In this document: positions 860-17,768 of the stretch, piece after piece
How positions within the stretch are numbered: the stretch's first letter is position 1
Layout of the letters: every line of letters starts with the position of its first letter
NCBI GenBank assembly: GCA_026014565.1
Contig: JAOZIB010000013.1
Location: forward strand, 1 to 37,120
Direction: 5' to 3'
Origin: Candidatus Bathyarchaeum sp.
GTDB lineage: Archaea; Thermoproteota; Bathyarchaeia; Bathyarchaeales; Bathyarchaeaceae
Length of the DNA stretch: 37,120 nucleotides
Notes under the pieces: generated by a model
What the model was told of the DNA's origin: nothing
The model's input: the letters and a program-made list of their open reading frames with translations, nothing else
Database searches by the model: none
Position numbers and translations under genes: made by a program

Positions 860-1158
860 AGTCACCTTCAAAATTTTGTTAAGGTGATGATTTTTCACAA
901 CTAAAAAAATGCAGAAGTGACGAAGACTCCACAGAACAATAATGTTTGTTTAAAAATTAGGTCATATATAAAAAATTATGACATAGACTGACTTGGGATT
1001 TTTGACATGTTTTAACATTATTTTGATAATTTTTAGTTAAATCTGATTTCCGTCCTTTTTTATTAGGATTTTTAAATCTTTTTTTAATTTTTTTGTGTTT
1101 TTCCAAAAATGTTATATATTGTATGGACTGAAGAATGTGTCTAATCGGTGAAAAATTT
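860..1158. other. Intergenic region before the first PQQ-propeller gene
   Basis: T-rich, with long T runs around 1058-1100. The only supported elements are the ribosome binding site of the minus-strand ORF at its left end and the TATA-type promoter near 1111-1119 at its right end. An antisense ORF at 957-1178 is low-complexity and has no ribosome binding site. Confidence 0.5.
1109..1151 (+). promoter_or_regulatory. TATA promoter and RBS of the 1159-3663 gene
   Basis: An A-rich tract and TTATATAT (1112-1119) form a BRE/TATA-like element, predicting initiation near 1140. A GGTGA (1148-1152) follows, 7 bases before the ATG at 1159. The very short leader is typical of archaea and supports the ATG at 1159 over the GTG at 1135. 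Confidence 0.6.
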
Positions 1159-3663
1159 ATGAAAAAACAGTTATGCAAGACAAAAATTTTTGCATTTTTT
1201 TGTGTATTAGTTTTTGTAATTTCAACAAATTTGGCGCTATTGCCTACAGTTGGGGCTCAAGACCTCAAAGAGAAAACAACATACGCGTTCATTGGTGCTA
1301 CACCTAATCCTGTTGGTGTAAATCAAGACGTATTGTTGCACGTCGGAATTACAGATTATCTAGAAATAGCGGAAGATGGCTGGGAAGGTCTAACAGTAAC
1401 AGTTACTGATCCCCAAGGAACAGAAACCGTTCTTGGACCCTACAGAAGCGATTCTACCGGTGGAACGGGTGCAGTATTTGTACCCACGATGGTAGGTACA
1501 TATACTTTGCAGACTCACTTCCCTGAACAAGAATACACTTGGAGTGAAATTAGTCGTGCACCATTAGGTGGGGGCGATTTGCTCTATCTAGCAAGTACAA
1601 GTGACGTGCTAGAACTTGTTGTTCAAGATAATGCAGTAGACTATTATCCGTCAAATTCTCTTCCAAATGAATACTGGAGTCGTCCAATAGATGCCCAGCT
1701 TAGGGAATGGTGGTCAATCGCTGGAAGTTGGTTAGAAGGCGCAGCCAGAGGCGGCGTAGTTATGCCATACAATGACGGGCCTGAAACCGCTCACATACTA
1801 TGGACAACTGAGTTAACCATGGGTGGACTGGTTGGAGGAGACATGGGTGAGCATGGAATGGTATGTGGAGACGCATACGAGGGCAAATACATTGATGCCT
1901 TAATCATTGACGGAATTCTTTACTACAACAAATTTGAAGCTCAAGGTGGTAGCGATGTTGAACAAGTTGTCGTTGCAATGGATCTGCACACTGGCGAAAC
2001 CGTCTGGGAACGAACACTACTAGATAACGAACAAATCGAATTTGGTCAAACCATGTACTGGGACACAATGAACAGCCACGGAGTTTACACATATCTGTGG
2101 GCAACTTCTGGAAGCACCTGGATGGCTTTTGATGCTCAAACTGGGCGATGGGTATACAACATTACTGATGTGCCTTCAGGAACACGAACCTTTGGTCCAA
2201 ATGGCGAGATTTTGGTGTACAGTGTCTCGAATGGTGTGTTAACACAATGGAACTCAACAGCAGTATACTACAACACCTTGATGGAAGAAACAGACAACTA
2301 CGCTTATCACGCAGGACGTTGGAGACCCCAAGGAAGAACTTTTGATGCATCATATGGACTAGACAAAACTATAGATCTGCCTGATGGCTTCGCAAGTGCC
2401 TCAGCTTATTACGTCAATGATAGAGTACTTTCAGTAAGCATATCTAGCACTGCAGTCAGATCTATCGCGGTGAGCTTAGAACCCGGAAAAGAGGGAACAG
2501 TGTTGCTTGAAAACACATGGAACGCACCTGCTGAATGGGAAAGCGGTAACTTGAGTGTATCATTTGCAGCCGGTTCTCCTGAAGATGGTGTTTTCGTTTT
2601 ATGGGCTTCACAGACCAGACAATTTTACGGATTTGATATGGACACTGGTGATAATATGTGGGTCTCTGATTCACAAAACTACATGGATTACTATGCTGGT
2701 ACTAACTACGTTATAGCTTATGGAAACCTTTACGCTATAGGCTATGATGGAGTTCTATATTGTTATGATGTTACAACGGGTAACGTAGAATGGACTTATG
2801 TCGCAGACGATAACTGGCACGAAATCTTGTGGAGCAACAACTGGCCTAGTAGAATTCAGTTTGTTACTGATGGAAAAATCTACGTTGGTATGGAAGAGCA
2901 TTCTTCTGTTGATCCTAAACCTCGTGGAGCACCCTACTACTGTATAGATGCATACACTGGAGATGAAATCTGGAGAATCAATGGCGGCTTCCGACAAACT
3001 CACTGGGGTGGAAACTCAATCATAGGCGATGGAATAATCGCAACCATGAACACTTACGACCAACGCATTTACGCAGTCGGTAAAGGTGCAAGCGCATTAA
3101 CCATGTCGGTTTCACCAACCGTTGGAACAAAAGGAAGCTCTGTTCAAATCGAAGGTACAATTATGGACGTATCACCAGGCACAAATAGCGTTGAATTGAC
3201 CACTCGATTCCCCAATGGTGTTCCCGCAATCTCTGATGCCGATATGAGTGAATGGATGAAATACGTTTACATGCAATTTGAGCGACCCGTAACAGCAACA
3301 GGTGTAACAGTAATCTTTTGTGCAGTAGACCCTGATGGTCAATACATGGACATTGGCAGAACCACTAGCGACTCTTATGGCAACTATGCATTTGCATTTA
3401 AGCCTGAAAAGGAAGGCACCTACCAAATTATTGCAACATTTGAAGGTTCTGGCGCGTACTATGGCTCAACCCAGACAACATACCTTACTGTCGATTCCGC
3501 ATCTGCAGCCACACAGATTGAACTTGAAGAACCAGTAGATGCACAAGTAGACTCAGAAGAACCTGTAACAGGTTTCATAACCACAGAAGTAGCTATCATA
3601 TCAGCAGTTGCAGTTGCAGCAGTCATTGGCGTAGCTGCATACTGGTTCCTAAAACGAAAATAA
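1159..3663 (+). CDS. Membrane-anchored PQQ-type beta-propeller surface protein
   Basis: An 834-aa exported protein. An N-terminal signal peptide (KTKIFAFFCVLVFVISTN, ending near VGAQ) is followed by a region with an Ig-like character. At least five PQQ/WD-like blades follow, with the D-x-x-TG-x-x-x-W pattern (for example MDLHTGETVW, FDAQTGRWVY, FDMDTGDNMW, YDVTTGNVEW, IDAYTGDEIW). After that come an Ig-like domain (about 660-780), an acidic linker, and a single membrane helix ending in the basic stop KRK. The protein should sit outside the cell, anchored by its C-terminus. PQQ-like repeats in archaea rarely bind PQQ; a structural or binding role on the surface is the safe inference. It shares its architecture with the gene at 15141-16931. 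The start at 1159 is chosen from the GGTGA seven bases upstream. Confidence 0.85.
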   Translation: MKKQLCKTKIFAFFCVLVFVISTNLALLPTVGAQDLKEKTTYAFIGATPNPVGVNQDVLLHVGITDYLEIAEDGWEGLTVTVTDPQGTETVLGPYRSDSTGGTGAVFVPTMVGTYTLQTHFPEQEYTWSEISRAPLGGGDLLYLASTSDVLELVVQDNAVDYYPSNSLPNEYWSRPIDAQLREWWSIAGSWLEGAARGGVVMPYNDGPETAHILWTTELTMGGLVGGDMGEHGMVCGDAYEGKYIDALIIDGILYYNKFEAQGGSDVEQVVVAMDLHTGETVWERTLLDNEQIEFGQTMYWDTMNSHGVYTYLWATSGSTWMAFDAQTGRWVYNITDVPSGTRTFGPNGEILVYSVSNGVLTQWNSTAVYYNTLMEETDNYAYHAGRWRPQGRTFDASYGLDKTIDLPDGFASASAYYVNDRVLSVSISSTAVRSIAVSLEPGKEGTVLLENTWNAPAEWESGNLSVSFAAGSPEDGVFVLWASQTRQFYGFDMDTGDNMWVSDSQNYMDYYAGTNYVIAYGNLYAIGYDGVLYCYDVTTGNVEWTYVADDNWHEILWSNNWPSRIQFVTDGKIYVGMEEHSSVDPKPRGAPYYCIDAYTGDEIWRINGGFRQTHWGGNSIIGDGIIATMNTYDQRIYAVGKGASALTMSVSPTVGTKGSSVQIEGTIMDVSPGTNSVELTTRFPNGVPAISDADMSEWMKYVYMQFERPVTATGVTVIFCAVDPDGQYMDIGRTTSDSYGNYAFAFKPEKEGTYQIIATFEGSGAYYGSTQTTYLTVDSASAATQIELEEPVDAQVDSEEPVTGFITTEVAIISAVAVAAVIGVAAYWFLKRK

Positions 3664-3674
3664 ACCCAACACAT

Positions 3675-3700
3675 TTTCTCCCTCCTTTTTCTGGGAGAAA
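3675..3700 (+). terminator. Hairpin after the PQQ-propeller gene
   Basis: TTTCTCCC (3675-3682) pairs perfectly with GGGAGAAA (3693-3700) across a 10-nt T-rich loop, starting 12 bases after the stop codon. No T-run follows directly, so it may protect the 3' end rather than terminate; T-rich DNA around 3764-3780 could serve as the actual terminator. Confidence 0.5.
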
Positions 3701-3704
3701 CCCT

Positions 3705-3828
3705 AAAGGAAATGGGGCTGAAACGGCTCTGAAAAATGAAAATGACCAAAATAGTAGTAAGGTTTTTTCATTTTTTCATTCCTTCAATCACCTTCTAGGG
3801 CCCCAGCAAACCCATTTCTTTCAAACCT
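3705..3828 (+). repeat. Dispersed intergenic repeat, copy A
   Basis: This segment matches the reverse complement of 11180-11315 along its length. Shared blocks, in order: GAAATGGGGCTGAAA, AATGAAAA, AAGGTT followed by TTTTCATT, ATTCCTTCA, and AGCAAACCCA followed by TTCAAACCT. The ends form an 8-bp inverted repeat, GAAATGGG (3709-3716) and CCCATTTC (3811-3818). Both copies lie just downstream of, and in the same orientation as, a protein gene. Confidence 0.6.
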
Positions 3829-4291
3829 TTCATTAGATTACAGGCAGAGGGATTTAAGCCCAAATTTATCAGCAAAAATTCACATATCGTTAAATATAGA
3901 CATAAGATTTAATCTGTTACTTCAATCCATTTTTATATTGTTCAAATACATAGAACAAAGGGAGTCATAGTTTAAGCCTTGGCAGAACTCTTTTGATGAA
4001 ATTTATCACATTTTTTTAGGAGCATTATTCGACCAGAATATTTGTCGTTTGTGCCTTGTTTGGTGTTTACTCTATTAGATTTTGCTGTCGCTCTGTCTCA
4101 GGTTTTTGCGTGTTTGTTTGAATATAACCGTTTTAGCTGTTTTCAGTTTAGATTGGTTGCTTTGTTCGTTCAAAGGAGTTGACTTTGCGGGTTACCAAAA
4201 TGGCTTTGAATATGTTTGTGAAAAAGATGGAGTGTCTTTTTTAGAAAACGTAAATAAGCGCCAAGCACTTTACCAAAACGGTGAAAATCGA

Positions 4292-5074
4292 GTGAAAATT
4301 GCTGTTTCTGGTAAGGGTGGAGTCGGTAAGACTTTGGTTTCTGGAACACTTGCGAGTTATTTCGCAAAAAAAGGATACAAAGTAATGGCCATTGATGCGG
4401 ACCCATCTCCTAATCTTGCTTTGACTTTGGGAATACCTGTAGAAGAAGCAAATAAGATTCTTCCCATCTCTGAAAACAAAGAGTTGTTAGATTCAAAAAC
4501 TAAAACTGACTATCCCGGTGTTTACAAACTTCACTTTACAGTAGACGACATCATCGAAGAAAACGGAATGAAATCCCCATACGGAGTAAATCTTCTGGTA
4601 ATGGGAACCGTCAAAGCAGCTGGCAGTGGATGTGCATGTGGAGCAAACGCAGTAGTAAGAGAACTATTACGCCACCTGATAGTAGACCGAGACGAAATCG
4701 TAATTGTAGACATGGAAGCAGGAGTAGAACACATGGGACGCGGAACCGCCAGCCAAGTAGACGCCATGATAGTAGTTGCTGATTCTAGCAGAAAATCCTT
4801 AGAAATCGCCAAAAAACTGAACCTATTTGCAAAACAAGCTGGAATCCAAAAGGTATACATCGTCGGCAACAGGATCCAAGAACCCATAGAAAAAGAACTG
4901 ATCACAAATTTCACAAACGAAAATGACCTAGAGTTACTGGCTTTGATTCCATACGACAAAACTGTAGTAAAAGCAGACAGGTTAGGTGAAGCTCCATTAA
5001 AGTACGCAGAAACTTCCGAAAGCGTCAAGGCAATTCAAACAATTGGTGATAAGCTTCTCGAAGCTCAAACCTAA
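4292..5074 (+). CDS. cooC: CooC-type CO dehydrogenase maturation ATPase
   Basis: A 260-aa MinD/ParA-superfamily ATPase. The protein opens with VKIAVSGKGGVGKT, a deviant Walker A loop with the signature lysine at residue 8, then DADPSPN at 35-41. Cys114 and Cys116 form the C-x-C motif (GSGCACGAN) that in CooC dimers binds metal during nickel insertion into carbon monoxide dehydrogenase. Length and motif positions fit CooC closely. The start is the GTG at 4292, which has GGTGA about eight bases upstream and puts the P-loop at the N-terminus; the frame is open 70 codons further left without similarity. The cytoplasmic role is ATP-driven nickel loading of CODH/acetyl-CoA synthase. No CODH subunit gene is in the window, but a likely nickel/cobalt transport cluster is (25062-31723). 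Confidence 0.85.
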   Translation: MKIAVSGKGGVGKTLVSGTLASYFAKKGYKVMAIDADPSPNLALTLGIPVEEANKILPISENKELLDSKTKTDYPGVYKLHFTVDDIIEENGMKSPYGVNLLVMGTVKAAGSGCACGANAVVRELLRHLIVDRDEIVIVDMEAGVEHMGRGTASQVDAMIVVADSSRKSLEIAKKLNLFAKQAGIQKVYIVGNRIQEPIEKELITNFTNENDLELLALIPYDKTVVKADRLGEAPLKYAETSESVKAIQTIGDKLLEAQT

Positions 5075-5098
5075 TTTTCTTTATTTTTTTATTTGTTG
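5075..5098 (+). terminator. T-rich terminator of cooC
   Basis: Directly after the cooC stop codon the plus strand reads as T runs broken by single A, G or C bases (5077-5098). Oligo-T without a hairpin is the usual archaeal termination signal. It overlaps the end of the convergent radical SAM gene. Confidence 0.45.
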
Positions 5099-6102
5099 CT
5101 ACGACCTGCCCAAAGACCCACAAGTTGAGAAGCTTCTTTAAACGGATTCTTTAGCATCATTGAAACTCCAGCCGTGCATTCTAGCCAGCATCCGTTGCAT
5201 GCAGATACTTGTTGCCATTCTTGGGTGTTTCTTTGTTTTAGAATATTGTTCACAGAGCCTTTAGTTGCATCTCCAATAATCAAGTCTGACCGTGCAGGAC
5301 ACGCTAACAGTTTTCCTTCAGGGTTGATGGCTACGTACAGGTCTCCGGCATCACATATTTTTGGGGAGGTTCCGTTGAAGAATTGCTCAAAACCTTTGAT
5401 GAACTCGGTGGGTAACGCCAAAAAACTTGGGTCTGAGTGTTTTAGTTCAAGTAAAAAGTTCACAAGGCGAGAAATCTGCTGTTCAGTTGGCGTGTTTTCG
5501 GGTGTTGGTGGATACGGATGCATAGGCTGAACTTGAGCCATGTCAACTTTGCTGTGTAGGTCTTCAATAAACTGGGGTAAAATATCGATGTTCCATGGGG
5601 TGGCGACGCTGTTTACTCCTGTTTTTACTCCATGAGCCTTTAACAGCTCTATGGCTTTGATTGCTTTATCATAGGTTCCCGCAACTCCCCTGATTTTATC
5701 ATGCATCAGTTTAGGTCCATCAAGGGAAACCACTACCGTATCAAAAACTGCTGCCACATCATCAATTATTTTCTCAGTTAGTAAAGTTCCGTTAGTGTTC
5801 ATGCTAACTAAACAACCATGAGAAGCAACTCGTTTGGCAAGAACAAGTAAATCTTTACGCAAGAGAGGTTCGCCCCCGCTGAGGTCAAAGAAGGAAACAC
5901 CTAAACTGCAAACAGCATCTATAGCTTGCAGAGCTTTTTTTGTGGGCAATTCTGGAATTTGATGTTTCCACCATTCACAAAAGGTACATTTCATATTACA
6001 TCTGCCAGTTACGTTGTAAGACGCAAAAAGTGGTGTGGGGCGCCCTGCCTTGAATTTCAGAAATCCACTGATTACTTTGGGGGCTAACTGGCTGGTTTTC
6101 AT
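5089..6102 (-). CDS. Radical SAM protein with SPASM-like C-terminal cysteines
   Basis: A 337-aa enzyme. Cys35, Cys39 and Cys42 (GRCNMKCTFC) form the C-x3-C-x2-C site for the SAM-cleaving 4Fe-4S cluster. LSGGEPLL and SLDG are the usual SAM-contact strands. The C-terminal part has CDAG, LLACPA and CNGCWLEC, a cysteine set like a SPASM or twitch domain for auxiliary clusters, found in peptide- and cofactor-modifying enzymes and in heme d1/AdnA-type proteins. The substrate cannot be named. The start at 6102 is chosen because a TATA box (6147-6155) lies about 45 bases upstream; the longer frame to 6213 would place the start above the promoter and inside the upstream gene. It is convergent with cooC. 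Confidence 0.75.
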   Translation of the reverse strand: MKTSQLAPKVISGFLKFKAGRPTPLFASYNVTGRCNMKCTFCEWWKHQIPELPTKKALQAIDAVCSLGVSFFDLSGGEPLLRKDLLVLAKRVASHGCLVSMNTNGTLLTEKIIDDVAAVFDTVVVSLDGPKLMHDKIRGVAGTYDKAIKAIELLKAHGVKTGVNSVATPWNIDILPQFIEDLHSKVDMAQVQPMHPYPPTPENTPTEQQISRLVNFLLELKHSDPSFLALPTEFIKGFEQFFNGTSPKICDAGDLYVAINPEGKLLACPARSDLIIGDATKGSVNNILKQRNTQEWQQVSACNGCWLECTAGVSMMLKNPFKEASQLVGLWAGRSNK

Positions 6103-6146
6103 CGTTTTTCCCAACTTTTGTTTCAAGACAAAGAAATGCGGAACAA

Positions 6147-6155
6147 GATATAAAA
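6147..6155 (-). promoter_or_regulatory. TATA box of the radical SAM gene at 5089-6102
   Basis: TTTTATATC on the minus strand, predicting initiation near 6122 and a leader of about 20 nt to the ATG at 6102. It overlaps no coding sequence of the upstream gene, which ends at 6168. Confidence 0.55.
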
Positions 6156-6167
6156 GGTAAGAGAGGA

Positions 6168-6770
6168 CTATTTTTGTTGGTTCATTCGTTCGTACATTTT
6201 TTCTAGGGTCCAACGAATCGAAGACTTTATTTCTCGTGACCGTTCAGGGCGAAGATTCTTGATCATTATCTCTTTCATGATGTTTCCGTCCTGCTTTATG
6301 TCAAAACTTAGCACTTTATCAGGGTCCAGTTTGCCTGAACTGATGTCTTCTTTGTCTTTTTCATGCATTTTGGCTAAGACGCGTTCCACAAAAAATGACG
6401 TGAAGGGAGGAGTATTAATGTCAAATTTTTTATCTTCAGGAAAAACTATGTGCAGGGCATCTTTTTCAGAAACAAATTCGGCTAAAACATCTCCTGTTAT
6501 TGTTTTCAGGGGAATCCCTTTTCGTTGAGGTGCAACTGGTTGAGGTTTAGCTATTGGTTTAGCAGATGCGGGTTGGGCTTTCTGGGAGGATATGGGTTTT
6601 TGAATTTCTGCTCTTTTGAAGCTTTGTTTAACAAGGGTAGAATCAATCAAATTGAGTAATGTTCTTTGTTCATCCAGTTCTGTTTCAAGTTCGGTTATTT
6701 TTTTCTCAATGTTGGCACGAAGTTTCGCTACTTTTTTGATTTGCTCTTTTTCGTCGTTTAGTTCACTCAT
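6168..6770 (-). CDS. Uncharacterised protein with N-terminal coiled coil
   Basis: A 200-aa soluble protein without a signal peptide or membrane helix. Residues 1-50 are heptad-like and charged (KEQIKKVAKLRANIEKK, then TELETELDEQRTLLN), predicting a coiled coil. A Lys/Pro/Ala/Gln-rich linker follows (about 55-85), then a globular domain (about 88-200) ending in a basic, Met-rich helix. I recognise no family. It follows the DNA ligase gene on the same strand with a 100-bp gap, so the two may be cotranscribed; a DNA-related role would be guesswork. The ATG at 6770 is the natural start, although the ribosome binding site is weak (GGAAAC). Confidence 0.6.
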   Translation of the reverse strand: MSELNDEKEQIKKVAKLRANIEKKITELETELDEQRTLLNLIDSTLVKQSFKRAEIQKPISSQKAQPASAKPIAKPQPVAPQRKGIPLKTITGDVLAEFVSEKDALHIVFPEDKKFDINTPPFTSFFVERVLAKMHEKDKEDISSGKLDPDKVLSFDIKQDGNIMKEIMIKNLRPERSREIKSSIRWTLEKMYERMNQQK

Positions 6771-6870
6771 GTTTGTTTCCTTCTGGACGATACTAAAACC
6801 TGTGTTAACAGACTACATTCCAATAAGATATGAAACACCCCTTTTAAATTTGGTTTATCTCCAAATTTTG

Positions 6871-8631
6871 TTAACCATCTATCTTTTTGTGCTGACTTCG
6901 ATACATTTCCACAATTTCTTCAGGAGTAGTTGCATCTTCAGCAGCTTTATCCACCCGATACTTACCGGTAAACCGGGGAAACCGTATGGCAACTCCACTG
7001 CCTTCCCGAATAACATTCATCGCACATGTGTGAACTGGACTTAACGTCAGGTCCGCGCCTCTAATTTCGATGACTACTGCTGGTTCAAACCAAACATCCA
7101 CATCAATTGTAGAATTCACGCGGGGATGTTTATGCTTAATTTTATGAGGATTAAGCAGTTTGGGGAGCTTTTCTAGGTCTGCGTCTGTGAATCCGGTTCC
7201 AACTTTTGTTACTGTTTCAAAAACGTCAAAATCTGGATTATACGCTGCAAGAAGAAATGTTCCATAGGTTCCTGCCCGTTTTCCGCGACCATGAACAGCC
7301 CCAACAACCACCAAATCAACAGTGTCCGTCATTTCTGTTCTGTAATCTCGCTTGTATTTTATCCAAAGCCAACCCCGTGCACCAGCTTTATACACAGAAT
7401 CTTCGTTTACGGATTTGCACATTATTCCCTCGCTTCCTTCATCAACAGTTTTTTCAAAGAATTGTTCTAGTTCCTTTGGGTTCTCTGCGAGGATGCTTTC
7501 TGCAACTTGAATGTTTTTGCTTGCTTCAATTAACTTCTTTAAAAATTGGTGACGAACCGGATAAGGCTGCTGAGTGAAATCAGTTCCATCAGCATATAAA
7601 ACGTCAAACACAAATAAAACGATGGGGTGCTCGTTCATTGCTTCTTCTATGCCGTATTTTCGTCGACGGTGCATGAGTTCCTGGAAAGGTTTCATTTCTC
7701 CGGTTGTGGGATCTATTGCTACTGCTTCTGCTTCTATGATTGCCTCTTTTGCCTTAACATTTTCAAGAATGTATTTCACGCCGTCAGGATATTGTTCAGT
7801 AATGTTTTCTAAACGACGAGAAAACAAAATCACCTTGTCATTGACTTTGTGGGCTTGCACTCGTTCTCCATCATACTTGTATTCTGCAATGCATTTTCCC
7901 CCAAGCTTTTCAATAATCTGTTCTGACGAACTAAGACGCTCTGCAAGCATGGGCCGAATGGGCTCACCAGTCATTACTTTGAATTTTTTGATTCCTTCCA
8001 TTCCTTCTTCGGATACGACTTTTGCTACTCTCCCCAAATCCGAAGAAATGTTGTAGGCACGCTCCAGATGTTCACGGGCTTCCTTTCCGCCACCAAAAGC
8101 AATGGCCAATGCATCCAAAACTGTCATGTCGGCAATTCCCAACCGCAAACTTCCTGTAACTGTACGGACGATATATTTTGCTTCACTAGGCGATGCATCA
8201 GACAAAATGCCCGCCAAAAGAGCCAACTTTAACTCCACAGACCCCGAGCCTGTGGATTTTGCAATTTTATCTAAGACATCGTAGACCCTTTGCACAGTTA
8301 ACGGGCTGGAAAAAAATGTGGACTGAGCTTTTTTTTCCATGAATTTTTCTGTAGTTTCCCCCAAATCACCAACAGCTTGGAGTTCTGTTACTATTTGGGT
8401 TTCCCTATGACCCGAAGACTTGGCAACTGCGCGAATGGCAAGTTTTTCTGCAATACCAATTTCAACGCCAACAAAATCAGGATACAATTTCCCCTGAGTC
8501 AAATAAACAACCTTGTCGATGAGGTCTGTGGGAGTTTCTTTTAGGATTTCAACCAGATAATCAGTCATTTCAAGGCGTTTTGTTGTTGCCTCAATTTTTT
8601 CGTAAGCTTTAGCGATACTAGAATACTTCAA
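6871..8631 (-). CDS. lig: ATP-dependent DNA ligase
   Basis: A 586-aa replicative ligase of the archaeal/eukaryotic ligase I type, sealing nicks with ATP. Residues 1 to about 215 form the DNA-binding domain. Lys252 in EYKYDGER (motif I) is the nucleotidyl-transfer lysine. Downstream are the adenylation motifs FSRRLENIT, EAEAVAID, FDVLYADG and EGIMCKS, and the OB-fold motif WLWIKYKRDY. The C-terminus has the conserved FPRFTGKYRVDK. Length is normal for the family (about 560-600). The start is TTG at 8631, eight bases after GAGGAA and about 40 bases after a TATA box (8668-8680). The first gene of a possible operon with the 200-aa protein downstream. Confidence 0.95.
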   Translation of the reverse strand: MKYSSIAKAYEKIEATTKRLEMTDYLVEILKETPTDLIDKVVYLTQGKLYPDFVGVEIGIAEKLAIRAVAKSSGHRETQIVTELQAVGDLGETTEKFMEKKAQSTFFSSPLTVQRVYDVLDKIAKSTGSGSVELKLALLAGILSDASPSEAKYIVRTVTGSLRLGIADMTVLDALAIAFGGGKEAREHLERAYNISSDLGRVAKVVSEEGMEGIKKFKVMTGEPIRPMLAERLSSSEQIIEKLGGKCIAEYKYDGERVQAHKVNDKVILFSRRLENITEQYPDGVKYILENVKAKEAIIEAEAVAIDPTTGEMKPFQELMHRRRKYGIEEAMNEHPIVLFVFDVLYADGTDFTQQPYPVRHQFLKKLIEASKNIQVAESILAENPKELEQFFEKTVDEGSEGIMCKSVNEDSVYKAGARGWLWIKYKRDYRTEMTDTVDLVVVGAVHGRGKRAGTYGTFLLAAYNPDFDVFETVTKVGTGFTDADLEKLPKLLNPHKIKHKHPRVNSTIDVDVWFEPAVVIEIRGADLTLSPVHTCAMNVIREGSGVAIRFPRFTGKYRVDKAAEDATTPEEIVEMYRSQHKKIDG

Positions 8632-8667
8632 CAGGAAAGTTCCTCACAACTAGAACTGTTTACTAAC

Positions 8668-8680
8668 ATATATTAAAAAT
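8668..8680 (-). promoter_or_regulatory. TATA promoter of DNA ligase
   Basis: The minus strand reads TTTTTAATATATG, giving a predicted start of transcription near 8645 and a leader of about 15 nt with a GAGGAA ribosome binding site before the TTG start. Confidence 0.6.
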
Positions 8681-8698
8681 GTTAAACAACTTGTGGGC

Positions 8699-9013
8699 TT
8701 ATTTCTTTGCTAGAAGTAACAGTCCACAAAATATGTTTAGTGCACCTGTTATTCCTAGGACAATCATGAACATTGGGTTAAGGAACAGGCTGATGGACAT
8801 TATGAGGCTGTAGGCGGTTAGGCAGACGGTGACGATTCCTGCTGCGAGCATAGCAATGGATAAGATTCTGCCCAGTATTTGCACTACCTTGAATACGTCG
8901 AGGGCTTCTGTTCCGGTGGTGTCTTTGAAGATTGGCTTTTTTTTGGGTATGTAATCTGGTGCGCGAACAGAAACCTCGTTGTCGTTTTTGCGTTTTCTTG
9001 CCAACTTTTTCAC
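8699..9013 (-). CDS. Small membrane protein with two helices, 104 aa
   Basis: A basic cytoplasmic N-terminus of about 42 residues (KKLARKRKND, IPKKKP) is followed by two membrane helices (about 46-75 and 80-101). It ends MIVLGITGALNIFCGLLLLAKK. This last segment has the same pattern (hydrophobic-VLG-x5-N-I-x-x-G-L-L) as the end of the permease upstream and of the two 74-aa proteins at 10560 and 10790. The start is a GTG at 9013 with a poor ribosome binding site. It follows the permease with a 25-bp gap and is probably cotranscribed. Function unknown; an accessory of the permease is a reasonable guess. Confidence 0.6.
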   Translation of the reverse strand: MKKLARKRKNDNEVSVRAPDYIPKKKPIFKDTTGTEALDVFKVVQILGRILSIAMLAAGIVTVCLTAYSLIMSISLFLNPMFMIVLGITGALNIFCGLLLLAKK

Positions 9014-9038
9014 ATCTAAGTATTATTTTCTTATTTGT

Positions 9039-10538
9039 TTAATCATGTTTATGTGCAGAAGCTGCAATGTTTAGCAGCCCCGCAATTATGGTAATTATTC
9101 CCACAAAAATCATTATGGGAAACACATAAAGGGGTACAATGCTGGGGGCCATAACCAGCAGGGTCGCTCCGATTCCAAGGCAGATTCCGCCAACTGCTAC
9201 GCGTAGACGGTCAAAGTCGATTTCTCGTTTAACCATCCGCAGATAATATGTGAGTAAAACAACTGCCACCATGCCTAAACTGGACAGTAAAGCTCCTGAG
9301 GCGTTAACATCTCCTAAAACTATTGGGAAGGCAAGCAACAAAACTGACATAACAATACCGGCAATAGGCGTCAACGGATACAAGGGAGCTTTGAAAGGTC
9401 TGTCTAATCGAGGCAGTTTTCTTCTCAGTTTAATCAATGACAAGTTAACCAAAGCAAAAACCAGCAACGAACCAAAGCTAGAGGCGTAACCAAGAAATAC
9501 TGCGGCTCCGCTGGTTCCAAAAACTATTACGAAAAATGAACTGACAATAATTGCTATGTATCGGCTTCCAAAGCGTTTATGCACTTTCTGTAAGGCGCTA
9601 GGGAGGTATCCGTCTCTGCTCATGCCACCAAGTAAACTAGACTGAACAGACATGGCAGTTCCCACCGAGGAAAGACTAGCAAATATACCTGCAATAGCGA
9701 AAAGAACTGAACCAAGTGGACCCAAAACTTTCGAGGCCGCCATGTTGAGTAACGGAGGGTCGCTTGCTGTTCTTGGAATATCTAGTGGAATAACTCCCAC
9801 GGCGACATATGTGACTGCAAAATAAACTACAGTCAAAAGAACTGTGGTGATTAGTAAGGCGCGAGGAATATTCTTTCCCGGATTTTTAATCTGGGGAGCT
9901 TTTGCTATTAGGGCGCGCATTCCAACAAACATGGGGAACAGATACGCTGTTGTTGCAAAAAATTTTGTTACTCCGTCTCCTGAAAGTTGTGGTACAATAT
10001 TTTGAGGTGTTAAAGTATAACCTATGCTTGTGAACAGAAAAATGATGAATATTGCCAAAAATCCGCCAACTATTAGAATGTCTGCTTCGCTTGTTCCACG
10101 AATTGCCAGAATTACAAGTATTGCAACTACTATTATAATCAATAATGATGTGTTAACTAAAATTAGCTCTTGAACCGACGGAGCAAAAATTGAAAACAGA
10201 ACTCCTAGTTGGTCTACAAATACTACTGTTGCGAGGGCTCCGCCAAAAATGCTAGCCAACCATCGAAGACAACCTGCCATAAATGATGTGATTCCGCCGA
10301 AGGCAACTTTGGTGTATGTGTATTCTCCTCCAACTTCAGGGAGGGCGGCGCTTAGTTCACTATAGCTAAGCAGGGTTAGCAGGTTAATTATGCTACAAAA
10401 AAACAAAGCGAACAACATACTAGGTCCAGCAAGGTCAAAGTAGGCGTAGTTGAGTAATGCAAATATTTCAAATCCTATTGCACCGCCTAGCCCACTGATT
10501 ACCGCACTGAATAATCCTTGTTTTTTTTCGTCACCCAA
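9039..10538 (-). CDS. APC-family amino acid permease
   Basis: A 499-aa polytopic transporter of the amino acid-polyamine-organocation superfamily. The first helix carries the family pattern GLGGAIGFEIF, close to the substrate-binding GxG of helix 1, and helix 2 follows with SELSAALPEVGGEYTY, the consensus E-P-x-x-G-G-x-Y. KNPGKNIPRALL matches the conserved loop before helix 7. About 14 helices are predicted, two more than the usual 12; the last two (about 440-495) resemble the small two-helix proteins around the gene. The substrate is probably an amino acid; a specific one cannot be assigned. The start is TTG at 10538 with GGAG ten bases upstream. Confidence 0.85.
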   Translation of the reverse strand: MGDEKKQGLFSAVISGLGGAIGFEIFALLNYAYFDLAGPSMLFALFFCSIINLLTLLSYSELSAALPEVGGEYTYTKVAFGGITSFMAGCLRWLASIFGGALATVVFVDQLGVLFSIFAPSVQELILVNTSLLIIIVVAILVILAIRGTSEADILIVGGFLAIFIIFLFTSIGYTLTPQNIVPQLSGDGVTKFFATTAYLFPMFVGMRALIAKAPQIKNPGKNIPRALLITTVLLTVVYFAVTYVAVGVIPLDIPRTASDPPLLNMAASKVLGPLGSVLFAIAGIFASLSSVGTAMSVQSSLLGGMSRDGYLPSALQKVHKRFGSRYIAIIVSSFFVIVFGTSGAAVFLGYASSFGSLLVFALVNLSLIKLRRKLPRLDRPFKAPLYPLTPIAGIVMSVLLLAFPIVLGDVNASGALLSSLGMVAVVLLTYYLRMVKREIDFDRLRVAVGGICLGIGATLLVMAPSIVPLYVFPIMIFVGIITIIAGLLNIAASAHKHD

Positions 10539-10559
10539 CTTGGTTTTTCTCCTTGTTTT

Positions 10560-10784
10560 TTATCTCCACCATTCCCGAATCAAAAAGAACCCGTTTATCA
10601 CTGAAAACAGGCTGAACAATCCCAGAACCAGAATGTATATTGGCGTAAATTCGGTAGGTAAATTAAATAGTGTATGGATTTCAATAAAATTGAAAAACAG
10701 CATAACTGTTGCTACACCAGCAAGTATTCCTATGCCGCTTTGGGCGACACCGAATATTATTGAGAGGATTCTTCTGTTTTCCAT
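10560..10784 (-). CDS. Small two-helix membrane protein, 74 aa
   Basis: Two predicted helices (about 7-32 and 48-70), separated by a loop with a conserved-looking Pro, and a short basic C-terminus (REWWR). Size and pattern match the neighbour at 10790-11014, including LVLGL at the start of helix 2. The ATG at 10784 has GGAGAAG about eight bases upstream, lying over the end of the preceding gene, so translation may be coupled. It is 21 bases from the permease. No known domain is recognised. Confidence 0.65.
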   Translation of the reverse strand: MENRRILSIIFGVAQSGIGILAGVATVMLFFNFIEIHTLFNLPTEFTPIYILVLGLFSLFSVINGFFLIREWWR

Positions 10785-10789
10785 GTTTT

Positions 10790-11014
10790 TTATCTTCTCC
10801 GAAGTATTACTGCGGCAACTATGTCAACTGCCCCAATCATTAACAACAAGCCAAGAACCAATCCCTGAAGGTTCTCCGTTTCAATGATGGTTATGTCAAC
10901 TAATCCCATGGTGCTTGCGAGGAAAACTCCCGTTACAACAATTCCGAGAAATATCAAAAATCCGCCTAAGGCAACCGCAAACCTGTTGTACCATTTTTTA
11001 TTGTTCAACACCAT
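10790..11014 (-). CDS. Small two-helix membrane protein, 74 aa
   Basis: Residues 10-34 and 48-70 are predicted membrane helices; the end LVLGLLLMIGAVDIVAAVIL resembles the neighbouring 74-aa protein and the 104-aa protein, so these look like paralogues. The frame runs on to 11083, but a TATA-like ATATACTA lies at 11033-11040 on the minus strand, which would put initiation near 11012. The ATG at 11014 is therefore preferred, possibly as a leaderless mRNA. It is the first gene of a four-gene minus-strand run ending with the 104-aa protein. Confidence 0.55.
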   Translation of the reverse strand: MVLNNKKWYNRFAVALGGFLIFLGIVVTGVFLASTMGLVDITIIETENLQGLVLGLLLMIGAVDIVAAVILRRR

Positions 11015-11032
11015 TTTTGGAAACCTTTCAAT

Positions 11033-11040
11033 AGTATATG
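11033..11040 (-). promoter_or_regulatory. Possible TATA box of the permease operon
   Basis: CATATACT on the minus strand, about 22-26 bases before the ATG at 11014, the distance expected for a leaderless transcript. The evidence is positional only. Confidence 0.4.
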
Positions 11041-11179
11041 TTCTATCTGCTTTTATTTCTTTAACAATCTTGAAGCTAAACAAAAATCAACGTTTAACCT
11101 CATTAATTTTTGCTAAACATAGAGTTATCAATGGTTGTTTAAACAAAAGAGTTCACAAGAGTTAGAATTTCAAAAAAAC

Positions 11180-11315
11180 AGGTTTGAAGAATTGGGTTTG
11201 CTAATGTTCAAGCATAAAAAATATGAAGGAATAAAATAATGAAAAAGAACCTTTCATAACAGTTTCAGGTTAGTTTTCATTTCATGCTTGAACCTTTTCA
11301 GCCCCATTTCTTTCC
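11180..11315 (-). repeat. Dispersed intergenic repeat, copy B
   Basis: Read on the minus strand this aligns with 3705-3828. Its own 10-bp perfect inverted repeat, GTTCAAGCAT (11206-11215) and ATGCTTGAAC (11284-11293), encloses 68 bases and is absent from copy A. Like copy A it lies downstream of a protein gene in that gene's orientation (the stop codon of the radical SAM gene is at 11441). Confidence 0.6.
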
Positions 11316-11440
11316 ATGTTTTTGCTTTCATTACAATTGTCATAATTTTTTGATCATTTTTTGAACGTTAATTCTTTGACAACCTTTATTTTATCCCCAG
11401 GTAAATCATTCAAAGTTCTACTTGATCAACAACCCTTAGT

Positions 11441-12967
11441 TTAGCAAACTTTTTCGGAAAGTTCAAAAGCAGAAAGTTGTTGTTCCACGTTTTTTGAAGA
11501 ATTAGAATTCATTTTCAGCATACTTTTAACAAAACCAAAAGTTTTTCTGGGATGCATCAAAGCTTTCAAAACTTTCTTCGAGGTTATCACTCGATTTACT
11601 GCGTTAGCCTTTTGGCAATACTCACTAACTTCTTTGAGGGTGAAATCTGAAGTTTGAATCAAAGGTTCAACGTGTGCCAAGGATTGGTCATTAAAATCTT
11701 CAGTTAGATAACCGCCTTGTTTAGCTTGCTCATACAATTCAGTTCCATAAAGAGGCATAGCAACACAAAAATGAAACATATCGGCACCTAGACCTCGCAG
11801 CTTATAAGCAAACTTTATGGTTTGGTCCATATCTTGTTTCGTTTCACCAACAAGCCCAAGAACAAAAAACACACCCACTTTAATACCAACTTTTCGAGCC
11901 AAAACAAGAGCATTTTCAACATCCTCGAGTTTCATATTCTTATGGATAACTTCATCAACAACCCGCTGAACCCCAGATTCAGGTGTTAAACGAATTTTTT
12001 TACAACCCGCAACCTTCATTTTTTTTAAAACTTTTTCATCAAGAGTGTCAGCACGAAGACCGTCAGGAGTATACCACTCAAGGTCCAAGTTTCTGTCACG
12101 AATTGAATCACAAATTTGTTCCATTCTTTTTTTGTCATGAGACATATTGCTATCAATAAAATCGATTTGTTTGATTGAATATTTGTCAACAACGTGTTCA
12201 AGCTCTTCAACAACATTTTCTGGACTTCGACTCCTCCAATTTCGTCCACTTACAATGTGAACCGAACAAAAAACACACCTATGAGGACACCCTCTGCTCG
12301 TCATAATTGGCGTCCAAGACTTATTAATGACCCCTCGCAGGGGGTGCTCCTTTACATCCCTAAAGTATTTGTCCATTGGGAGCAGATGCCTAGCAGGAAA
12401 GGGCAACAAATTAAGATTTTTAATGGGGGCTCTTAAATTATTTAAAAGAAATGTATCATTTTTTCTAAATCCTATTCCTTTAATTTTTTTTAGTCTGTCA
12501 ATTGAAAAGCCTTTTTGGAAATGATAAGCTATCTCCTGAAAAGAGTATTCACTTTCACCGCGGATAATAAAGTCAACATTGGGTTCGGATAAACATTGAT
12601 TTGGACGAGCAGAAGGGTGTAGACCATCAAAAACGGTAACGATGCTTTCGTCGAGATTTTTGACAATGGATGCAACTTCAAATGCGCTTTTTGACCAACC
12701 AGAAAAAGGAACATTGATTCCAACAATATCGGGTGAAATTTGTTTTATTCGATGGTACAATTCTTTATTTGTCAGACCAACTTTGTAGTTAGAGTCATCA
12801 ATTTCTTCAAGATTATTCCACCCGTCAGTGGGTGAGTCAATAATTGTGACTTTGTTTTCAGTTTCGAGAACTGCTGCCGTGTATGCTAAGGCTAATGGTT
12901 GATAAACTGCAGGTTTTCCCCATCCTTTGGGATGAATTCTAGGAGGGTTAATTAAACAAACATTCAT
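11441..12967 (-). CDS. B12-binding-domain radical SAM enzyme
   Basis: A 508-aa protein of the BchE/class B type. Residues 1 to about 175 form a Rossmann-like B12-binding domain (VCLINPPRIHP, IVGINVPFSGW, VTVFDGLHPSARP, VDFIIRGESEYSF). The radical SAM domain follows with Cys227, Cys231 and Cys234 (SRGCPHRCVFC), then IDFIDSNMS and LTPESGVQRV. A helical tail without cysteines ends the protein. Such enzymes carry out methyl transfers or rearrangements on lipids, chlorins, peptides or antibiotics; the substrate cannot be predicted. It stands alone, but its upstream region closely matches that of the PQQ/ABC operon at 13156-16931, suggesting joint regulation. The start is the ATG at 12967. Confidence 0.85.
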   Translation of the reverse strand: MNVCLINPPRIHPKGWGKPAVYQPLALAYTAAVLETENKVTIIDSPTDGWNNLEEIDDSNYKVGLTNKELYHRIKQISPDIVGINVPFSGWSKSAFEVASIVKNLDESIVTVFDGLHPSARPNQCLSEPNVDFIIRGESEYSFQEIAYHFQKGFSIDRLKKIKGIGFRKNDTFLLNNLRAPIKNLNLLPFPARHLLPMDKYFRDVKEHPLRGVINKSWTPIMTSRGCPHRCVFCSVHIVSGRNWRSRSPENVVEELEHVVDKYSIKQIDFIDSNMSHDKKRMEQICDSIRDRNLDLEWYTPDGLRADTLDEKVLKKMKVAGCKKIRLTPESGVQRVVDEVIHKNMKLEDVENALVLARKVGIKVGVFFVLGLVGETKQDMDQTIKFAYKLRGLGADMFHFCVAMPLYGTELYEQAKQGGYLTEDFNDQSLAHVEPLIQTSDFTLKEVSEYCQKANAVNRVITSKKVLKALMHPRKTFGFVKSMLKMNSNSSKNVEQQLSAFELSEKVC

Positions 12968-13117
12968 GTTAATTCCAACAATGACTACGATTTTTTTAAA
13001 TTTGATTCAATGTATTTAATAATTTGTATCGTAAATATTATGTATTTAATCCTAAAAGTTATTTTTCGGTCATTTTTTTATAAAAAAGGTGCAGATTTCG
13101 GTCAATTATTGCACCAA
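12968..13117 (-). promoter_or_regulatory. Shared regulatory region, copy 1
   Basis: This region aligns with 16932-17078 over its length. Conserved blocks include AAATTTGATTCAA, ATTTAATA, TTGTATC and TATAAAAAA. The inverted repeat GGTGCA (13088-13093) and TGCACC (13110-13115), with 16 bases between, starts 121 bases upstream of the ATG at 12967. A second inverted repeat, TTGATTCAA, lies close to the probable core promoter. Confidence 0.65.
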
Positions 13118-13155
13118 AATCGCATATTGAAATTTTCATTTATTGAAATTGACGT

Positions 13156-13830
13156 TCAATCTTGAGAAACAATTTTTCCATCTTTAAGGAACAGCATGCG
13201 GTCAATCTCAGCGCGTGGAAAATTACCGTGGCTTGCAACAACAATTGTTATCTTTGATTTATGGTTAAGCTCAACGAGTTTTGTTACAATCTCTTTTCCA
13301 GCTATGGGGTCCATATTACCTGTGGGTTCATCAGCGATAATAATTAGCGGATCCTTAACCAAAGCCCGTGCAATAGCCACCTTCTGTTGTTGTCCAACAC
13401 TTAACTCATGCGGCAGCATACTAGATTTGTCAGCTAAATCAAAAAATTTCAGTAAAGCAAATATTTTTTCATCAATTTCATTCCTGGACATGGTTGTATG
13501 AATTAAGGCTGATTCAACATTCTCAAATACAGTCAATGTTGGAAGAAGATTAAAGGTTTGGAAAATGAAACCTATCTTTTCTCTTCTTAGCAGTGCCAAG
13601 TCTTGATTTGAGAAATTACTGAGGTTCTTACCTTCAAACATTATTTCTCCAGATGTAGGTCGATTTAATGCACCAATAAGGTTCAGCAATGTAGTTTTTC
13701 CACTGCCAGAACGACCCATCACTGTCAAAAATTCACCTTTGAAAACCTCAAGGTTAACCCCATCTAATGCGTTAACCAGTGAACCATTCTTCAGGGGATA
13801 GCTTTGCATCAAGTTCTTCGTTTCTATCAA
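13156..13830 (-). CDS. MacB/LolD-type ABC transporter ATPase
   Basis: A 224-aa nucleotide-binding subunit. It has the Walker A GRSGSGKT (39-46), a Q-loop (FIFQTFNLLPTL), the signature LSVGQQQKVAIARAL (with V in place of the usual G) and the Walker B LIIADEPTGNMD. The FIFQxFNLLP segment is typical of the MacB/LolD group, which works by mechanotransmission with FtsX-like permeases rather than by moving solute through the membrane. The start is TTG at 13830, giving the usual MIETKNL N-terminus; the GAGGTGA at the end of the permease gene is about 20 bases upstream. It directly follows the permease gene (26-bp gap). Confidence 0.85.
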   Translation of the reverse strand: MIETKNLMQSYPLKNGSLVNALDGVNLEVFKGEFLTVMGRSGSGKTTLLNLIGALNRPTSGEIMFEGKNLSNFSNQDLALLRREKIGFIFQTFNLLPTLTVFENVESALIHTTMSRNEIDEKIFALLKFFDLADKSSMLPHELSVGQQQKVAIARALVKDPLIIIADEPTGNMDPIAGKEIVTKLVELNHKSKITIVVASHGNFPRAEIDRMLFLKDGKIVSQD

Positions 13831-13856
13831 TATATCGTTTTTAATTTTTTTTCACC

Positions 13857-15080
13857 TCACAGATGTCTAAGTGCTTCAGCGGGTTGCAGTTTTGCTGCAC
13901 GCCAAGCAGGGAATATGCCAGCCAATATTCCGCCACTGATCGAAAAAACTAACCCGACCAGAGGCAGAATTGGTGAAATCGTCAAAACAAGATTCTGGGT
14001 AGACACCAAATTGAGGCTTGGAATAAGGAAAATGATGAAATAACTTAAGCCAACGCCAATAATTCCACCAGCAACTCCCTGTAACAGAGATTCAAGAAAT
14101 ACTTGTTTAGTAATATCGGAATCTGCCCAACCTATCGCTTTGAGAATCCCAATTTCTCGTGTTCGTTCAACAACAGACCCAAATTGAGATTTAAGTGCAA
14201 ACAGAGTCATACAAATAAGGAGAACAATTGATATTGCCCAAGCGCTTTCAGTAGTAACTGAAATAACTTTTCTAGCAGCTGTACTACATTGGTAGCCAAC
14301 AACGGTACCTATTTCTCCTGTGTAATCATTTAAAGTTTCTAAGACGTCTTTCTCTAGGGAATTAATAGCTGTTGAATTCCCTTCAGAAGACATCTCTACA
14401 AGTACAACATTAATATCATCCATTTCAAAAAGATAGAGACGAGCATAATGTTTTCCGATTTCTTGAACCACATCAAGAGGGGCGTACATGCTAGCTATAC
14501 CTGCAGGTTTACTATAAACACTTGGATTTACGATTCCAACAACGGTGAAAGTTTGATCGAATGCATTTAGACTATCTCCCACTGTTAGTCCTGTCACTCC
14601 AGCATAAACCGAGTCGATAAGAACTGCACCAGAATCATTTACCTTTGAATAATTGCCAACGACTAACGTTTTAGCGTTTACAACATTAGTTTGCGTTGCT
14701 AGAGAATCATAATCAACTCCACATATGGTTAGATTATCAAGTCTAAACATCAAACAAGGTGCAGCGTCAAGAACACCGGCCAAAGTAGATACTTTTTCAA
14801 CCAGATCTGAGTCGAATGTGTACGTATACGCTGATTTGAAAAATGGACCAATATCTATAGCCAAATGACACGGGCAGATTATTGATTCAGGAGTGTATAC
14901 TACGAAATGAGTCCCAATCTGATTCAATTGAGAAGTGGCTTCTACATTGTAGCTTTGTGCAAACGTAACAGTGACAATTAAGAATGTAACTGCAATGACA
15001 TAACCAATTATAGAAGCAGTACTGCGGAGCTTTCGCTTTTTAATTTCTTTGATTGCATAATTACGGATCGTTTTAAACAC
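13857..15080 (-). CDS. FtsX-like/MacB-type ABC permease
   Basis: A 407-aa protein with one helix near residues 22-42, a large extracytoplasmic domain (about 43-270) and three C-terminal helices, the FtsX/MacB layout. ERTREIGILKAIGW before the last helices is the standard FtsX motif. The external domain is unusually rich in Cys: CPCH at 69-72, and further single Cys near PCLMF, TICGV and YQCS. Together with the ATPase (26 bp downstream) and the PQQ-propeller protein (60 bp upstream) it forms an operon, presumably acting on something at the cell surface, for example release or assembly of a lipoprotein-like or extracellular component. The start is GTG at 15080 with GTGAG just upstream. Confidence 0.8.
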   Translation of the reverse strand: MFKTIRNYAIKEIKKRKLRSTASIIGYVIAVTFLIVTVTFAQSYNVEATSQLNQIGTHFVVYTPESIICPCHLAIDIGPFFKSAYTYTFDSDLVEKVSTLAGVLDAAPCLMFRLDNLTICGVDYDSLATQTNVVNAKTLVVGNYSKVNDSGAVLIDSVYAGVTGLTVGDSLNAFDQTFTVVGIVNPSVYSKPAGIASMYAPLDVVQEIGKHYARLYLFEMDDINVVLVEMSSEGNSTAINSLEKDVLETLNDYTGEIGTVVGYQCSTAARKVISVTTESAWAISIVLLICMTLFALKSQFGSVVERTREIGILKAIGWADSDITKQVFLESLLQGVAGGIIGVGLSYFIIFLIPSLNLVSTQNLVLTISPILPLVGLVFSISGGILAGIFPAWRAAKLQPAEALRHL

Positions 15081-15140
15081 CTCACGTCCATATATAGATA
15101 GATTGAATTTTGTAAAAAAACAAAAAAGAAGGAAATTGGG

Positions 15141-16931: not shown

Positions 16932-17078
16932 TAAGTATCACCATTCATTTTTGATTTTTAAATTTGATTCAAAGCATTTAATACCTTGTATCAAAAATAA
17001 CTTCATTCTGAACCTAAAGGATGGTTTGAACATATTGTTTTATAAAAAAAGTGCAGATTTAACCACTCTTTTGCACGA
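16932..17078 (-). promoter_or_regulatory. Shared regulatory region, copy 2
   Basis: Counterpart of 12968-13117. The inverted repeat GTGCA (17051-17055) and TGCAC (17072-17076), again 16 bases apart, begins 120 bases upstream of the ATG at 16931, almost exactly the distance in copy 1. TTTGATTCAAA is a perfect inverted repeat around a single central base. The AT-rich TATTAAATG and AAATTTAAAA on the minus strand are the likely core promoter. Confidence 0.65.
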
Positions 17079-17237
17079 AAAGACTGCATTTAAAGGCATA
17101 CGGATCTTAACAAAGATTTTCAGATAGAATTATTTTAAGCGATAAAAATAAAAATTCTAAAAAAAAATAATTAATCTCGTATGTTTACTCAAACTTAAAA
17201 AAGAGAAAACTTTTTGGTGTTATCATAAAGTTTTAGC
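16932..17237. other. Intergenic region between PQQ operon and regulator gene
   Basis: The left part is the regulatory region described at 16932-17078. The right part (17079-17237) is A-rich and holds the 3' flank of the regulator gene; nothing else is recognisable in it. Confidence 0.5.
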
Positions 17238-17750
17238 CTAATTAGTTTGGTTTGAATCATCTGTAAAATCAGGATCTAGCCGCGTCAAAGAAAAAGGCAA
17301 ATACGTGTTTTCTTTTTTAACTAAATCTACCACAAAAAATTGAATGTCATCATAGAACTCTTGTGAATCCACTCTCAAACCGCTAATAAAATTGGAAAAA
17401 TCTGAGTAGTTTTTATGCGCAGACATAATTATGTTTGTAGCTAAACCTTCGCCGTCAGCAGCGAATAATATAGAATTGTGATTTTTAAACCACTCCATTT
17501 GTTTTTCACGCCAGTCTTTTTCTAAGGTACTCAACGTTAAAAATGTAAAAGCCAAGAGGGTGTAACCAATTTTTGTAAATTCAGGCAAAATAGTGTATTC
17601 ATTAATGTAGCCTTCGATTTCAAGTGCCCTCCTTGTTCGAGTCACAGTGGACCTTGTGGTACCAGTGATTTTGGACAATTCTTTATCACTTCTTCGAGCA
17701 CCTTTAATCAAAGCAAACAGAAGTTGCAATTTCTGCTGATTTTTTCGCAC
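17238..17750 (-). CDS. Winged helix-turn-helix transcriptional regulator
   Basis: A 170-aa protein. Residues 5-60 form a winged helix-turn-helix of the Lrp/AsnC or MarR type (QQKLQLLFALIKGARRSD, then ELSKITGTTRSTVTRTRRALE with the recognition helix). A C-terminal domain of about 100 residues follows, with a hydrophobic strand pattern like a RAM/ACT sensor, but no clear effector motif. The GTG at 17750 is preferred over the in-frame ATG at 17768 because GGGAG lies seven bases before it and after the ATG. It is adjacent to the PQQ/ABC operon and near the two GTGCA-N16-TGCAC sites, so it is a candidate regulator of both. The target is inferred only. Confidence 0.7.
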   Translation of the reverse strand: MRKNQQKLQLLFALIKGARRSDKELSKITGTTRSTVTRTRRALEIEGYINEYTILPEFTKIGYTLLAFTFLTLSTLEKDWREKQMEWFKNHNSILFAADGEGLATNIIMSAHKNYSDFSNFISGLRVDSQEFYDDIQFFVVDLVKKENTYLPFSLTRLDPDFTDDSNQTN

Positions 17751-17768
17751 AAGAAATCTCCCTTCCAT

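Follow-up and report, generated by a model that had tools for sequence, protein, structure and literature searches.

Several described systems of non-coding repeats come close to the element reported here. In integrons, genes are followed by attC sites, which are oriented imperfect palindromes with bulged bases and a variable end loop; these sites keep their structure with little sequence, are recombined at the DNA level, and carry R'' and R' boxes with the consensus RYYYAAC/GTTRRRY. In Neisseria, a conserved Sma/Cla repeat stands behind pilE and pilS, at the 3' end of a family of surface genes that undergoes conversion. The ERIC, Correia and REP sequences are intergenic imperfect palindromes present in tens of copies. 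In archaea, the MITEs of Sulfolobus islandicus are dispersed, short inverted-repeat DNA (PMC3718332).

In this study, we have described a long quasi-palindrome of Bathyarchaeia that shares part of its features with each of these systems. As in the case of attC, an oriented imperfect palindrome with bulged bases and a variable end loop follows a gene, structure is kept with little sequence, and recombination would act on the DNA; however, the copies are dispersed and belong with one gene family, and the attC end boxes are absent (none of the 63 full copies carries them at both ends). Six of the 54 Phage_integrase matches in element-bearing genomes were scored with the integron-integrase model TIGR02249, and the best of the six reached 75.4, against a cut-off of 265. 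With the pilin repeat, the element has in common that it is a conserved non-coding sequence at the 3' end of a surface-gene family, but here it is a long covarying palindrome, in an archaeon, with no known single expression locus. Unlike the ERIC, Correia and REP sequences, which it resembles as an intergenic imperfect palindrome in tens of copies, it is strictly linked and oriented to one gene family and comes with no Y1 transposase; unlike the archaeal MITEs, to which it is similar as dispersed inverted-repeat DNA, it has yielded neither a target duplication nor a parent transposon. By the features tested, the element is not an Rfam family and not a REP with a RAYT, and it is without attC boxes. 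Its way of working would, by analogy, be most like that of attC or of the conversion repeat behind the pilin genes. We propose, with a probability of roughly 0.4 and with a mechanism that we infer, that it is a DNA-hairpin exchange site tied to the surface-gene family.

Bathyarchaeia are widespread in anoxic ecosystems, and reports of their cultivation are few (PMC10477458). The window, that is, the whole stretch of 37,120 nucleotides analysed here, comes from the genome of a sediment archaeon of the genus Bathyarchaeum (G000; 1.81 Mb, 43 contigs). The initial annotation had pointed to ordered blocks shared by the segment 3705-3828 on the forward strand (copy A) and the reverse complement of 11180-11315 (copy B). 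The two can be aligned over their whole length, with a local alignment score of 110, while 1000 dinucleotide shuffles gave 27.5 on average (sd 5.2) and 47 at most, so that the shared blocks are confirmed and the shuffled alignments that the annotation had named as a control never equal them. The inverted ends that it had described are also seen, as GAAATGGG/CCCATTTC in copy A and as the 10-bp repeat GTTCAAGCAT/ATGCTTGAAC in copy B. The features are given below, where R1 stands for a covariance model built from 18 copies, A and B included.

1135 to 3663, + strand: host gene of copy A; open reading frame with Pfam matches to PF13360 (1e-10) and Big_3_5 (0.0018, below cut-off)
3676 to 3699, + strand: CTCCC-T-rich-GGGAG hairpin after the stop and ahead of copy A; from the sequence, with similar hairpins at other gene-linked copies
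3700 to 3829, + strand: copy A of the element; R1 match of 112.5 bits, E 1.7e-23 (A is part of the model set)
3705 to 3716, + strand: outer arm P1 of copy A, 5' side; from the sequence, the A/B alignment and the pair count
3717 to 3720, + strand: inner stem P2 of copy A, 5' side, GCTG; same basis
3804 to 3813, + strand: most conserved box of copy A, CAGCAAACCC (3' arm of P2, AAA bulge, start of the 3' arm of P1); from the conservation of CAGCAAAC
3811 to 3821, + strand: outer arm P1 of copy A, 3' side; from the sequence, the A/B alignment and the pair count
4238 to 11146, no strand: block collinear with the congeners G002 and G006, with internal length differences; from genome comparison
11178 to 11319, - strand: copy B, an orphan convergent with A; R1 match of 104.1 bits, E 1.8e-21 (B is part of the model set)

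Both copies lie 3' of protein genes, as had been noted at the outset. Copy A starts 36 nt past the stop of ORF 1135-3663, which encodes a secreted protein of 842 aa with a PQQ-type beta-propeller, a weak Ig-like stretch and a C-terminal membrane anchor with the last residues AAYWFLKRK. Copy B is found 121 nt past the stop of ORF 11441-12967, a radical-SAM/B12-binding protein and not a surface protein, and is therefore counted among the orphans. The two copies are neighbours, yet their distance (0.38) is no smaller than usual and they have no long element tract in common. Of the two ends of the collinear block between them, one is 0.4 kb away from copy A and the other some 32 nt away from copy B. 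Beyond it, a 6.9-kb segment (11147-18018) with radical SAM, ABC transporter parts, a surface protein and an HTH is missing from G002 and G006; an imperfect direct repeat of ~21 bp around TTTAAACAA is found at both of its ends and once in those genomes, and copy B is located within the segment, ~32 nt from its left end. The reverse strand at 15141-16931 encodes another protein with a PQQ propeller; its Ig-like matches are weak, its C-terminal anchor has LRKRK as the last residues, and no R1 match lies behind its gene.

With copy A as a DNA query, 48 places were found in the window's genome at E 10, and 19 of them had an E of 7e-5 or better, at least one of these 19 (L018) not being an element; some weak matches are, by eye, start regions with an SD sequence. 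R1 finds 22 sense copies there with an E of at most 4.7e-4, of which 20 are full and 2 truncated at contig ends. This number is past the ten or more that the annotation had looked for. At E < 1e-6, the model finds 19, 23 and 19 sense copies in the congeners G002, G006 and G007. Among 61 genomes searched, G000 included, 15 gave a match at E 0.1. Strong matches come from six of the eight genomes of the genus (G000, G002, G004, G005, G006 and G007) and, outside it, from three genomes of the family f7 of the same order (G039, G051 and G060), where the copies are diverged. The R1 search of 19 genomes of other genera in the same family as Bathyarchaeum gave no match, and no stretch of the viral contigs held the exact core pattern. 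Once antisense and sub-threshold rows had been excluded, 65 of 81 R1 rows were kept as the sample for genomic context; without two copies cut at contig ends, 63 full copies remain. Mean pairwise distance between copies is 0.33, with about one third of the positions differing. Our literature search found no description of the element, and the word "repeat" is absent from the main text of the Bathyarchaeum tardum paper (PMC10477458).

Each copy is one long quasi-palindrome of 125-150 bp, composed, from the outside inwards, of the arm P1, a three-base A bulge on the 3' side, the stem P2, a bulge on the 5' side, the arm P3, an inner hairpin and a linker. P2, a 5-bp stem (GCTGA/TCAGC), and the AAA bulge next to it are nearly invariant, whereas P1, P3 (GGCTC.../...GAGCC) and the linker vary between copies and the inner hairpin contains T-runs. 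Of the 63 full copies, 47 carry the box CAGCAAAC unaltered and 57 carry it with at most one mismatch; the f7 copies have the same core, with a 5'-side bulge that varies. The arms P1 to P3 form terminal inverted repeats, a feature of MITEs. In 18 copies, 82.4% of the cells pair (shuffled mean 77.4, unmatched in 500 shuffles), in a structure placed by hand from the arms and so biased towards itself. The check for compensatory changes, proposed at the outset, was also positive: both sides have changed at 18 of the 27 pairs, a number reached in 0 of 500 shuffles (mean 9.5), with numerous matched changes in P1 and P3, and the number of further pair types was reached once in 500. The shuffles do not keep the relatedness of the copies; a second control does, in which the arms are slid by 1 to 3 columns, and pairing then falls to 29-51%. 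RNAalifold returns just 5 pairs on a plain MAFFT alignment, because the middle of that alignment is misaligned.

Read on the element's strand, 50 of the 65 copies lie 25-73 nt past the stop of an ORF for a surface protein with a C-terminal membrane anchor and a basic end, while 12 are orphans and 3 are indeterminate (contig end or N runs). The suspicion that structured elements form a dispersed family, with most members in 3' flanks, has thus been borne out, and our confidence that the family, its structure and its link to these genes are real is high. The proteins concerned are secreted, membrane-anchored and about 850 aa long; most share 26-76% identity with the protein of copy A along the greater part of the latter's length, a few match it only in part, and a PQQ-type beta-propeller was seen in all three of the linked proteins that were scanned. 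In G000, 16 of 17 family genes have the element (two elements being cut by contig ends), the exception retaining a truncated remnant; in G002 it is found at 14 of 15, the last having none. All these elements are on the strand of the gene. In G004, where the protein search gave no family gene, the DNA search found the 3' end of one adjoining the element. The picture differs in f7: among 22 family ORFs from G051, G039 and G060, selected for the absence of a strong R1 match, 14 are element-free within 260 nt past the stop, 5 have the element, its start or a decayed version of it, 2 are cut off too soon for a reading and 1 is broken; one of the element-free genes of G060 has a weak match (E 0.026) about 0.5 kb behind. 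Family genes therefore do not need the element. The family gene is present in four f7 genomes, all from a single genus, with no convincing element at the 20 gene loci searched in them, and in eight genomes from other genera of the Bathyarchaeum family the gene search found no family gene. Behind the stops of those element-less f7 genes whose flanks were inspected, a C-run and T-run is still present, which indicates that the hairpin at 3676-3699 is probably the gene's own terminator and that the element, added behind it, does not itself form the terminator. In G039, two genes whose proteins are 57% identical end in the same 55 nt, and a third contig begins with these 55 nt.

The clearest rearrangement is found on contig C25 of G000, where the counterparts of two convergent units, X and Y, are X' and Y' in G002, with the flanks inverted relative to the middle. 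At the base level, the gene and most of the element pair X with X' and Y with Y', and the downstream DNA pairs X with Y' and Y with X', which places the crossover either within the element, towards its 3' end, or immediately downstream of it. This is the only inversion mapped into the element. Long identical element tracts in diverged surroundings occur in three of eight neighbouring pairs (83 nt in G006, 97 nt in G007, 87 nt in G002); the other five, A/B included, have no element tract of that length, and one identical tract of 104 nt falls within a gene, so ordinary gene conversion acts on the units. Between G000 and G002, the nearest neighbours of gene and element agree in 6 of 29 cases, although the distances between genes are correlated with those between elements (Mantel r 0.40, 29 copies, p 0.001). 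Within a genome, elements less than 15 kb apart are closer to one another than those farther apart (median 0.27 versus 0.37, P 0.008; 8 and 394 pairs). Other rearrangements end near elements: a length difference between G007 and G002 begins 160 nt behind one copy, and a 10.6-kb insertion in G006 with two units has elements at neither end. This insertion (L231 4309-14908, C1) comprises two surface genes with their elements and AsnC-type and TrmB-type regulators; its flanks are nearly identical in G002, and the site is empty in G002, G007 and G000. In G007, a direct duplication of ~243 bp, 95% alike (L232 2822-3065 and 6638-6880), surrounds an extra unit of gene plus element that is absent at that place in G006 and G002.

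Several explanations compete for these observations. A structured RNA, either a 3'-UTR element or a processed small RNA controlling the surface-protein mRNA, would account for the fixed place past the stop on the gene's strand, for the covarying stems and for the folding of the sense strand (-15.8 to -60.7 kcal/mol, median -41.1, in the 63 full copies, values obtained without a shuffle control). The antisense strand, however, folds equally well (median -40.8 kcal/mol; sense more stable in 33 of 63). RNA helices keep G-U pairs more than A-C pairs, but the helix cells of the 65 copies hold 94 G-U and 91 A-C, and isolated mismatches flanked by Watson-Crick pairs in the 63 full copies are 19 GU, 22 AC and 17 other, by a pairing method that treats G-U and A-C alike. 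In the stems of 19 distinct tRNAs, by contrast, there are 42 GU and 0 AC (14 and 0 isolated), in an ARAGORN set that may favour G-U and under-report A-C pairs. T-runs, which serve archaea as terminators, lie ahead of and within the element. No Rfam family was found for the element: at gathering scores, the whole window matched only CRISPR repeats, and eight element loci, searched up to E 1, gave a single match (E 0.35) far below its gathering score; nor did the 12 orphans, inspected by eye, have a promoter in common. The small RNA that the initial annotation had suggested is thus not supported, and we consider an RNA distinctly unlikely. Because G-U pairs are not preferred, unlike in tRNAs, and both strands fold equally, the arms look matched as DNA, and the palindrome seems to be kept as DNA. 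The comparison of G-U with A-C mismatches is a simple test that separates DNA palindromes from RNA elements. A reverse-strand peptide was considered as well, the T-rich arm being start-like on the minus strand (SD, ATGAAAAAA), and was rejected by eye, on lengths that vary out of frame and substitutions that look mostly non-synonymous.

The MITE-like element that had also been suggested corresponds to a non-autonomous mobile palindrome (MITE- or ERIC-like) inserting behind the terminators of this gene family. This would fit the paralogs that have or lack the element at the same slot, the orphans and the patchy occurrence over two families of the order, as well as the frequent disagreement of element and gene relationships, owing to which elements may move or convert on their own. 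We nonetheless hold it to be unlikely: the place is tied to one gene family, with the elements of G000 and G002 on the gene's strand; no clean empty orthologous site for the element alone was seen among the few compared, nor a target duplication; one orphan flank searched had no close match in G000; and the Y1 transposase PF01797 is found in 2 of 25 genomes (G032 and G045, both without an element match) but in none of the 11 that belong to the genus or are f7 carriers. Ordinary gene conversion is a serious rival to the exchange site. In its full form, which we judge rather unlikely, the element is a passive, functionless passenger, old 3'-flank sequence copied with the surface genes, in which homologous conversion among paralogs gives the tracts and the inversion and template-switch correction keeps the arms complementary. 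The tract within the gene, the correlated distances, the closer likeness of neighbouring copies and the many f7 genes without the element all speak for it. On the other hand, blind correction should erase the bulges, which are kept with the inner stem in two archaeal families (apart from the varying 5'-side bulge in f7), just as CAGCAAAC is kept nearly intact in most copies; and sequences that differ at about one third of their positions, as these copies do on average, are a poor substrate for homologous recombination.

The exchange site that we propose is supported by the covariation, the absence of a G-U preference, the like folding of both strands, the gene link and the inversion on C25, together with the shared tracts in three of eight pairs, the low agreement of nearest neighbours and the closeness of elements within 15 kb. 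It is weakened by the single mapped inversion, other rearrangements ending near and not in elements, and by the direct repeat that the segment starting at copy B has of its own. Fast sequence change could also yield the 6 of 29, tyrosine recombinases occur in genomes with and without the element and do not separate them, many of the f7 genes lack it, and ARAGORN may be biased. The data favour a palindrome, kept as DNA, that has a part in the exchange between surface-gene loci; for a mechanism in which it would cause that exchange, our confidence is moderate to low. In the proposed model, single-stranded DNA would arise during replication or when transcription of the gene runs into the terminator, and the palindrome would then extrude into a hairpin whose inner stem is fixed and whose two A-bulges lie opposite each other. 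This hairpin might be recognised, or might simply provoke strand exchange with other copies, whereby 3' flanks would be swapped between surface-gene loci, short tracts would be converted, and the DNA lying between convergent copies would be inverted. The element would thus act as a recombination hub that keeps the repertoire of surface proteins reshuffled.

A more specific form, an archaeal cassette-like recombination unrelated to integrons, in which a hypothetical dedicated enzyme would act on the folded single strand to flip or shuffle surface-gene loci, appears improbable; if true, it would describe an archaeon with a switchable coat. With the palindrome linked to some 17 surface genes in each genome, surface variation in an archaeon would become directly testable. 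Two enrichment genomes with 99.31% ANI have been reported (PMC10477458), and the strain differences between them would be part of such a testable system.

Some minor observations may be added. Contigs end or start at elements in G000 (C1, C8 and C32) and in G039 (two ends, one start), which suggests alternative junctions; repeats and hairpins also break assemblies, and these ends were not used as evidence. Four orphan copies (L114, L119, L102 and L103) have in common an upstream motif like GTCAAATTTTCTTGAGAAAAACCTTTTTT. The core pattern is also present on contig L174, which is filed as Tenericutes bacterium M17C-02 and was probably misbinned, belonging to a Bathyarchaeum of the same enrichment. 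Four CRISPR repeat units of the Rfam family CRISPR-DR7 stand at 19-275 of the window, where the contig begins.
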